Shown here: positions 61,226 to 63,763 of the stretch, piece by piece | Layout: every line of letters begins with the position of its first letter | How positions within the stretch are numbered: the stretch's first letter is position 1 | NCBI RefSeq assembly: GCF_003640395.1 | Contig: NZ_RBZQ01000001.1 | Location: forward strand, 186,001 to 250,000 | Reading direction: 5' to 3' | From: Stutzerimonas urumqiensis | GTDB lineage: Bacteria; Pseudomonadota; Gammaproteobacteria; Pseudomonadales; Pseudomonadaceae | Length of the DNA: 64,000 bases | Translations under genes and position numbers: made by a program | The notes under the pieces: model-generated | Databases searched by the model: none | The model's input: only the letters and a program-made list of their open reading frames with translations | What the model was told of the DNA's origin: nothing

Positions 61226-62446
61226 ATGCCAACGCCCCCTCTTCCGGTTAATCGCGCCGATTTCGACCAGGTCATCGTCCCCACTTTCGCCCCGGCGGCG
61301 TTCGTGCCGGTGCGAGGCGAGGGGTCGCGAGTGTGGGACCAGAGCGGGCGCGAGCTGATCGACCTGACGGGCGGCATCGCGGTCAACGTGCTCGGGCATG
61401 CGCATCCGGCGCTGGTCGCCGCGCTCACCGAGCAGGCCGGCCAGCTCTGGCACATCTCCAATGTCTTCACCAACGAGCCGGCCCTGCGCCTGGCGCGCAA
61501 GCTGGTCGAGGCGACCTTCGCCGAGCGCGCCTTCTTCTGCAACTCCGGCGCGGAAGCCAACGAGGCGGCGTTCAAGCTGGCTCGCCGGTTCGGTCATGAG
61601 ACCGGCGGTGCGCAGAAGCATGAAATCGTTGCGGCGCTCAACAGCTTCCACGGTCGGACCCTGTTCACCGTCACGGTCGGCGGCCAGCCCAAGTACTCGG
61701 ACGGCTTCGGGCCGAAGATCGAAGGCATCCGCCATGTGCCGTACAACGACCTTGAGGCGCTGAAGGCCGCGGTGTCGGATCGGACCTGCGCCGTGGTGCT
61801 GGAACCGATCCAGGGCGAGAGCGGCATCCTGCCGGCCGATCAGTCGTATCTGGAAGGTGCGCGCGAGTTGTGCGACGCGCACAGCGCCCTGCTGATATTC
61901 GACGAGGTGCAGACGGGCGTGGGTCGCACCGGCGACCTGTTCGCCTACATGCACACCGGCGTCATCCCCGACATTCTGACCACCGCCAAGAGCCTGGGCG
62001 GCGGCTTCCCGATCGGTGCGATGCTGACCACCGAGCGGATCGCCCGCCATTTCGGCGTCGGCACGCACGGCACCACCTTTGGCGGCAACCCGCTGGCCTG
62101 CGCCGTCGCCGGGGCGGTGATCGACATCGTCAACACGCCCGAGGTGCTGGACGGCGTACGCCAGCGGCATCAGTGGTTCCGCGAGCGGCTAGAACGCATC
62201 GGCGAGCGTTACGGCATCTTCAGCCTGATCCGCGGCCGCGGCCTGCTGATCGGCTGTGTGCTGTCCGACGCCTGGAAGGGCCGTGCCAAGGATGTGTTCG
62301 ATGCGGCTGAGCGCGAGGCGCTGATGGTGCTGCAGGCTGGCCCGGACGTCGTCCGCCTAGCGCCGAGCCTGGTGATCGAGCGGGCCGATATCGACGAGGG
62401 GCTCGATCGGCTCGAGCGGGCCATCGCCACGCTGGTCGGTGCCTGA
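61226..62446 (+). CDS. aruC: Succinylornithine / acetylornithine aminotransferase AruC
   Basis: A 406-residue class III PLP aminotransferase, the same length as P. aeruginosa AruC and very like it ([55 protein letters not shown]). The PLP Lys is in [15 protein letters not shown]. In the arginine succinyltransferase pathway it acts on succinylornithine; it also serves arginine synthesis as N-acetylornithine aminotransferase. Here aruFGDB do not follow, so the biosynthetic role may be what keeps it. ATG at 61226 with CAGGAGAG upstream. Confidence 0.94.
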
Positions 62447-62497
62447 GGTCGGTCCTTTTCAACCGGGCCGGTCGCCGGCCCAACGCGGAGAACAGGT

Positions 62498-62782
62498 ATG
62501 AGCGATAGCCTGCAATTGATTCTGGAAGACGTGGATGGCACCCAGCTGGAGACCTCCTGCACGCGCTTTGCCGTGGTCTGGCAGGGCAAGGAGGTCTGGA
62601 TCCAGCAGGTTGGCAATAACCAGCTGATGATCGGCGTCGACGTGGAGGAAGGCGATACCGAATACGCCAACCTGCTGCTGCGCCCGCTGGCGACCAACCT
62701 CGTCAGCCTGGAACTCGAAATGGAACCGGTGGAAGCCGAAGACGGCCATGTGCATGGGCCGGATTGTTGTCACGATCACTGA
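62498..62782 (+). CDS. Small acidic protein between aruC and aruE (PA0900-like)
   Basis: A 94-residue acidic protein annotated in some pseudomonads as topoisomerase II, with no real basis I can see. The C-terminus HVHGPDCCHDH is a dense His/Cys cluster that could bind metal. Its counterpart in P. aeruginosa lies between aruB and aruE. It is 12 bases before aruE and probably co-transcribed. Confidence 0.8.
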   Translation: MSDSLQLILEDVDGTQLETSCTRFAVVWQGKEVWIQQVGNNQLMIGVDVEEGDTEYANLLLRPLATNLVSLELEMEPVEAEDGHVHGPDCCHDH

Positions 62783-62794
62783 AGAGTCGACAGG

Positions 62795-63763
62795 ATGCTG
62801 GCACTGGGTAAATGGCTGGAGCTGACGCTTGCCGGCCGAGAACCGATGGAGAAAATCCAGCTCACCGCCAAGGGGGTGAAGCTGCACTGGCTGGCCGAGG
62901 GCGCGATGTTGATCACGCCGCCGGCCAAGCAGGACACGGGGGCCGACGTCGTGCTGTCGGCCGGCGTGCATGGCAACGAGGTCATCCCGATCCTGCTGCT
63001 CGACCGCCTGATCCGCCGGATCGCGCGCGGCGAGCTGATTCCGGGCGTGCGCGTGCTGTGCCTGCTGGGCAATCCCGGCGCGGTGCGCAAGGGCGTGCGG
63101 GCGCTGGAAACGGACCTGAATCGGCTGTTCCTCGGCGCGCATGCCGACGCTGGCGGTGACGAAGCCTTCCGGGCGGCGGAGCTGGAGCGGCTGGTCGAGA
63201 CCTTCTACGCCGATGCGGCACGCACGCGCCGTCATTACGACCTGCATTCACCGATGCGCGCGTCGCGGCATGCGCAGTTCGCGGTGCGTCCCGCACAGGA
63301 TGCGGCCGTGAGCGACGAAGCCCTGGCACGGCTTGCCGACACGGCCATCGAGGGGTTGGTGTTGCAGGAGCGACCGACCCGCACGTTCAGCGCTCACACC
63401 GCGATGCAATTCGAGGCCGACAGCTTCACCCTTGAACTGACCGATGCACCCTCGCTGGGGCGCGTCGAAGCAGGCCTTGCGCGGGTGATTGCCGGACAGG
63501 CCCCGGAAGCGGGCACCCGTCCCAAGCTCTATCGCGTCGTGCAGGAAATCCTGCGACGCAGCGAAGGCTTCTACCTGCGTCTGCCGGCGGATATCGAGAA
63601 CTTCGCCCCGGTCGCACGCGGATCGCTGTTGGCCGAGGAGGCTGGCGGCGGTCGGCAGATCGTCGAGGAGGAGGGTGCGCACATCCTCTTCCCGATGGCG
63701 CAGGTCGCGATCGGCCAGCGTGCCGGCCTGATCCTCGTGGAGTGCGAATCGCAGCCGGCTTAA
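62795..63763 (+). CDS. aruE: Succinylglutamate desuccinylase AruE/AstE
   Basis: A 322-residue zinc carboxypeptidase-like enzyme that releases glutamate and succinate, the last step of the arginine succinyltransferase pathway. Zinc ligands are in SAGVHGNEVIP (His and Glu) and YDLHSPMRAS (His); LGNPGAVRKGVRALETDLNRLF is a family block. Full length and apparently intact, although aruFGDB are not next to it. The stop overlaps the convergent gene at 63760 by 4 bases. Confidence 0.93.
   Translation: MLALGKWLELTLAGREPMEKIQLTAKGVKLHWLAEGAMLITPPAKQDTGADVVLSAGVHGNEVIPILLLDRLIRRIARGELIPGVRVLCLLGNPGAVRKGVRALETDLNRLFLGAHADAGGDEAFRAAELERLVETFYADAARTRRHYDLHSPMRASRHAQFAVRPAQDAAVSDEALARLADTAIEGLVLQERPTRTFSAHTAMQFEADSFTLELTDAPSLGRVEAGLARVIAGQAPEAGTRPKLYRVVQEILRRSEGFYLRLPADIENFAPVARGSLLAEEAGGGRQIVEEEGAHILFPMAQVAIGQRAGLILVECESQPA

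Follow-up and report, generated by a model that had tools for sequence, protein, structure and literature searches.

In Stutzerimonas, the arginine succinyltransferase pathway appears to have been lost long ago and throughout the genus, and a homologue of its last enzyme, AruE, may have been kept as a deacylase for another substrate. We assign this reading a probability of about 0.55, judging from sequence comparisons. The locus was analysed in a 64,000-nucleotide stretch of S. urumqiensis DNA (the window). The genome holding the window is labelled G000, and other G-numbers denote the other sampled genomes. The following features make up the locus (window coordinates):

61101..61193, plus strand: terminator-like hairpins upstream of aruC, three overlapping consensus matches
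61226..62446, plus strand: aruC/argD, acylornithine aminotransferase, 406 aa, recognized by TIGR03246 (706.6 bits) and NF009047 (661.3 bits)
62447..62497, strandless: junction of 51 bp with a G+C-rich inverted repeat, judged from the spacers of relatives and from folding
62498..62782, plus strand: 94-aa protein with a His/Cys-rich C terminus, an open reading frame of no assigned family
62795..63763, plus strand: AruE/AstE homologue, 322 aa, recognized by NF003706 (308.5 bits), the AstE fold and a motif switch

An earlier note had described this layout as aruC, 51 bp, a small gene and the aruE homologue, and the open reading frames lie at exactly these positions, with aruC starting at the ATG at 61226. 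The hairpins at 61101–61193 would separate aruC from the upstream crotonase gene; they are weak evidence, since four terminator-like hairpins were seen in the scanned region and 2.0 were expected. A tRNA-Ser (GGA) lies at 58708–58797 on the minus strand, and a 287-aa minus-strand open reading frame that crosses it (58018–58881) is probably spurious. Compared with the P. aeruginosa-type operon aruCFGDB-small-aruE, the window keeps the first gene and the last two in the same order and on the same strand, whereas aruF, aruG, aruD and aruB are gone; the downstream neighbour in G000 is oligopeptidase B and not ltaE-alaS. In AstA-bearing relatives, the four genes occupy about 5 kb at the place of the junction.

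The note had also claimed that aruF, aruG, aruD and aruB are absent from the locus, and no AruF/G/D/B match was found there. Nor are they encoded elsewhere: in whole-genome searches, AstA, AstB and AstD (the last with a threshold of E ≤ 1e-120) had no match anywhere in G000, and each of these searches was positive in the controls, E. coli and Caulobacter. G000 is a draft in 18 contigs, and the four genes could in principle be missing from the assembly and not from the organism. This is refuted by the 99.9% completeness of the 4.07-Mb genome, by the position of the window inside a 694-kb contig, and by the short junction inside contigs of 54 other genomes of the genus, several of them single-contig, in which AstA, AstB and AstD are likewise unmatched.

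It turned out that none of the 56 sampled Stutzerimonas genomes, two of which (G004 and G055) are merely 71–73% complete, has a match to AstA, AstB or AstD. Among 16 other genera of the Pseudomonadaceae, represented by one genome each, AstA was found in 13, AstB in 9 and AstD in 9. As a positive control, the full order aruC-F-G-D-B-small-E was recovered in all 17 newly fetched species of a neighbouring genus; it is also present in G066. The gap therefore does reflect absent pathway genes, both at the locus and in the genome, but it is no local event, because all 56 members of the genus share it. The short form is thus ancestral within the genus but derived within the family. The Stutzerimonas ancestor would have lost the arginine succinyltransferase pathway together with aruF, aruG, aruD and aruB; the lack of these genes was observed in the 56 sampled genomes, and from it we infer a single ancestral loss. 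Partial sets of aru genes occur in other members of the family. Outside the genus, G061 and G067 retain aruC and the small gene and have no AstA, and G065 has the order aruC-small-opdB, which is common to many Stutzerimonas. In G064, G070, G071 and G059 (loci L104, L109, L110 and L113), aruF and aruG are kept and AstB and AstD are unmatched genome-wide, so the succinyltransferase lacks its downstream pathway. Thus, the operon came apart repeatedly in the family. Arginine deiminase (TIGR01078) had no match in G000; it was matched in 25 of the 56 genus genomes, in 23 of them above the cut-off.

The retention of aruC has a plain candidate explanation. AruC exceeds the cut-offs of both TIGR03246 (609.95) and NF009047 (630), and among solved structures it is closest to E. 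coli AstC (4adb) and the Salmonella-type ArgD entries 4jev and 2pb0. A search for argD returned AruC itself as the only strong ArgD/AstC homologue in G000 (one AruC/ArgD-type match at E ≤ 1e-90). ArgJ was matched in all 56 genus genomes (55 above the cut-off) and ArgE in 54, being missing in G054 and G055; in G000 both are above their cut-offs. An excerpt of PMC3590144 describes E. coli AstC and ArgD as interchangeable; in contrast to AstC, AruC stands in a genome without the catabolic partners. Since AruC is the only strong homologue and ArgJ and ArgE accompany it, it was most likely retained for biosynthesis, as the acetylornithine aminotransferase. It would stay because arginine synthesis needs this enzyme, which agrees with the proposal in the earlier note that AruC was retained as N-acetylornithine aminotransferase.

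The 94-aa gene, called PA0900-like in the earlier note, is present in all 56 genus genomes (in G055 only a fragment, where the contig ends), in 14 of the 16 other genera of the family (G057 and G059 lack it) and in none of 44 genomes of other families. Every one of the 59 sampled family members that lack AstA has it next to aruC. The protein matched no NCBIfam or Pfam family at E ≤ 0.001; its sole Pfam match up to E = 10 was SspH, with E = 0.016 and a score below the cut-off of that family. The AlphaFold2 model had a pLDDT of 43.8 and was unusable. A G+C-rich inverted repeat occurs in the junction of many genus genomes, and its stems differ in sequence between them. We considered the junction hairpin as a conserved element and rejected it. 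The 48 distinct junction spacers of the genus fold somewhat better than their shuffles (mean z −1.7, 15 of them with z < −2), but they are interrelated, the spacer of the window folds no better than shuffles (z +0.3), and the 29 aruC-aruF spacers of AstA-bearing relatives also fold well (mean z −2.5).

The AruE homologue was matched in 42 of the 56 genus genomes and is missing in 13; G055 was left unjudged, as its contig breaks off within the 94-aa gene. On a tree of aruC and the small gene built with a quick method, the 13 genomes fall into five separate clades (SH-aLRT 97–100). The homologue is therefore dispensable. The AstE sequences of the genus group together in a single clade (quick method, SH-aLRT 98), and the nearest relative, G038, has an AruE 68% identical to that of the window. 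Outside the genus, AstA is present in 17 of the 17 genomes that have AstE at E < 1e-20; two further genomes lack AstA and match AstE only weakly (E about 1e-4). Such losses, together with a shortened N terminus in G043, are what would be expected if AruE were a decaying relic, which lost its function with the pathway and erodes slowly and harmlessly behind the conserved 94-aa gene. We consider this main rival explanation rather unlikely. The frame is stop-free within the matched stretch in 41 of the 42 genus copies. In the remaining one, G004, the alignment passes a stop near the C terminus and 328 aa are left; a TGA flagged in G032 is simply the end of a 325-aa frame.

The identification as aruE held only in part. 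With 308.5 bits, the window protein is AstE-type by the broad model NF003706 (PRK05324; cut-off 170), but its 272.8 bits on the AstE equivalog TIGR03242 lie below the cut-off of 305.65, and for this reason it is no standard AruE. Ten other Stutzerimonas proteins scored 248.7–294.7 bits, so that 11 of 11 tested are below the cut-off, whereas 9 of 9 canonical AstE proteins are above it (356.2–402.5 bits). The bit scores cover these 11 Stutzerimonas proteins, and the other ten of set A2 were compared by E value only; the best E value across all 21 was 1.9e-90. The G064 protein is also below the cut-off (284.7 bits). The domains PF24827 (140.4 bits) and PF04952 (62.6 bits; both cut-offs 25) place the window protein in the AspA/AstE superfamily. 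Its structure was predicted with a pLDDT of 93.9, and the best matches of the model were four AstE entries of the PDB (1yw6 from E. coli, 2bco, 2g9d and 1yw4; Z 36.0–39.5). Other superfamily members followed at Z 17–21. Among them, DoeB/EutE (6twm), aspartoacylase (2o4h), aminoacylase 3 (3nh4) and CphZ (8eip) share the superfamily fold and are far more distant (Z 17.6–19.5, 13–19% identity). According to the titles of their entries, the substrates of these deacylases are N-acetyl amino acids or a dipeptide, and this fold can therefore change its substrate. The predicted fold does not reveal the substrate of AruE.

We aligned 41 genus proteins (G004 was left out) with E. coli AstE and 27 canonical proteins, of which 9 represent eight other genera of the family and 18 come from G116–G133. 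H59, E62, D107, N109, R110, H151 and E214 are invariant in all 41 genus proteins, and Arg155 is kept in 40. In this family, H59, E62 and H151 correspond to the zinc ligands and E214 to the catalytic Glu. The window protein therefore shares with known AstE/AruE proteins the whole fold, the zinc ligands, the catalytic Glu, the D-x-N-R motif and the location behind the 94-aa gene in the aru operon. Its surroundings of the catalytic residues differ. Ten columns are switched: they are at least 95% conserved in the 27 canonical proteins and have another state in at least 90% of the 41 genus proteins. Nine of the ten lie within 12 residues, counted along the sequence and not in space, of H59, E62, H151 or E214, compared with 56 of 169 conserved columns (P = 2e-4). 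In six of them, E. coli AstE has the canonical letter: T152S, I154M, G216A, K217E and the deletions of P and F from the GKxRPFG-type loop that follows the catalytic Glu. At the remaining four columns (159, 203, 206 and 298), E. coli departs from the canonical letter, and at 203 and 298 it carries the letter of the genus.

The loop and the Lys beside the catalytic Glu are kept in 26–27 of the 27 canonical proteins, and also in E. coli. In the genus, the GKxRPFG-type loop was not found: P and F are deleted in 41 of 41 proteins, G has become A in 39 and K has become E in 40, which reverses the charge. The window protein has T216 and D217 at the G and K positions. The residues beside the zinc His are also changed nearly uniformly across the genus. 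The loop is lost in the AruE of G064 too, a genome with AruF/G and no AstB/AstD. A motif scan for the altered motif outside the genus gave 31 loci, of which 29 are from Stutzerimonas (23) or Pseudomonas-labelled records (6); the other two, from Paenibacillus and a Kordia bin, are weak matches (34% and 31% identity). The scan is biased to the genus because its patterns derive from the genus motif.

These changes bear on two of the explanations. It is improbable that the function is unchanged and that AruE still desuccinylates N-succinylglutamate or a closely similar compound arising elsewhere, either taken up or formed in a side reaction of a different acyltransferase. The fold is that of the AstE structures, the catalytic residues are the same and the broad NF003706 cut-off is exceeded, all of which would suit an unchanged function. 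However, the canonical loop and the Lys beside the catalytic Glu are lost or reversed in the genus, AstA, AstB and AstD are absent, and in G064 the loop and the Lys were lost as well. As for decay, it should scatter changes, whereas the catalytic residues are invariant in 41 of 41 proteins and the new letters are near-uniform. The earlier note had suggested that AruE may be left without a substrate. This probably stands insofar as there is no enzyme of the pathway to make succinylglutamate, but the protein is intact and altered near its catalytic residues throughout the sampled genus, and this is better explained by a different substrate than by idleness.

Selection was assessed with a one-ratio codon model in two Stutzerimonas subclades (20 and 14 genomes, with the species of the window in neither), in a genus-wide set of 39 genomes (G004, G031 and G043 were left out) and, for comparison, in 18 genomes of an AstA-bearing neighbouring genus, g12. 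The omega of AstE was 0.154 and 0.129 in the subclades and 0.136 genus-wide, compared with 0.044 in g12; the bootstraps (20 each) did not overlap (0.134–0.194 and 0.113–0.151 versus 0.034–0.056). AruC gave 0.025, 0.028, 0.034 and 0.027 in the same order. The 94-aa gene gave 0.021, 0.014, 0.019 and 0.022, so within genera its protein is more conserved than AruC. Fixing omega at 1 (with kappa fixed at 2.8) made the AstE fit worse by 483 and 747 log units in the two subclades. Since the omega of AstE is about three times that of g12 and yet far below 1, the constraint on AstE fell about three-fold but stayed strong. In six AstA-bearing genera, omega was 0.104 for AstE, 0.086 for AruC and 0.082 for the 94-aa gene, all probably raised through saturation of synonymous sites. 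This set was not used for that reason, although its values weaken the simple claim of a three-fold change.

With corrected protein distances and at equal AruC distance, the AstE/AruC ratio was 5.6–5.7 in the two subclades versus 3.05, which means that AstE changed about 1.9 times faster relative to AruC. In the six-genera set the ratio was 1.23, at far larger AruC distances. We discarded the same test on uncorrected distances, where the ratios hardly differed (2.98 for the whole genus versus 2.64 for g12). The raised omega and the faster protein change would both favour a decaying relic, and the three-fold omega relative to g12 also fits relaxed constraint, which speaks against a changed substrate; so does the observation that AstE proteins in general vary at four of the ten switched columns. 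On the other hand, an omega of 0.13–0.15 is far below 1.

We return to AruE as a deacylase kept for another substrate. In most species the homologue would have stayed a zinc-dependent deacylase that no longer acts mainly on N-succinylglutamate; the zinc ligands, the catalytic Glu, the D-x-N-R motif and Arg155 are preserved, while the GKxRPFG loop was lost and its Lys became acidic. Because the Lys and the loop are lost, we offer the guess, itself doubtful, of a small N-acetylated amino acid as the substrate, for example, N-acetylglutamate or N2-acetylornithine. Both are intermediates of the acetyl route that AruC would serve. A salvage role, rather than an essential step, would fit the repeated loss of AruE. 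Acetylornithine as the substrate would be redundant, since its deacetylation is already covered by ArgJ and ArgE. We rejected AruE as a needed replacement of ArgE: ArgJ is found in 56 of 56 genomes and ArgE in 54 of 56, including genomes without AstE. Tentatively, and at somewhat less than even odds, AruE may have given rise after the pathway loss to a genus-specific enzyme with a new N-acyl amino acid substrate, and G064 is perhaps a second, independent recruitment.

As far as searches of the open PMC literature go, the AruE case is apparently undescribed: they returned no joint treatment of Stutzerimonas, arginine and succinyltransferase. An excerpt of PMC10797017 reports a one-residue insertion in succinylglutamate desuccinylase as a marker of the Oleovorans clade, and the excerpts of PMC9007349 and of PMC5764234, which describes mutant fitness work, contain nothing on the Stutzerimonas AruE gene. 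The broad family model labels the genus protein a succinylglutamate desuccinylase, so arginine breakdown by that route could be wrongly inferred in a genus that lacks the pathway. The locus also exposes the 94-aa protein, more conserved than AruC and kept beside aruC even where AstA is gone. If AruE was re-used, its 42 copies, the 13 absences and the canonical proteins of sister genera would make a well-sampled case of a job change after pathway loss. If true, this would be a natural experiment in the recruitment of a dead pathway's last enzyme.
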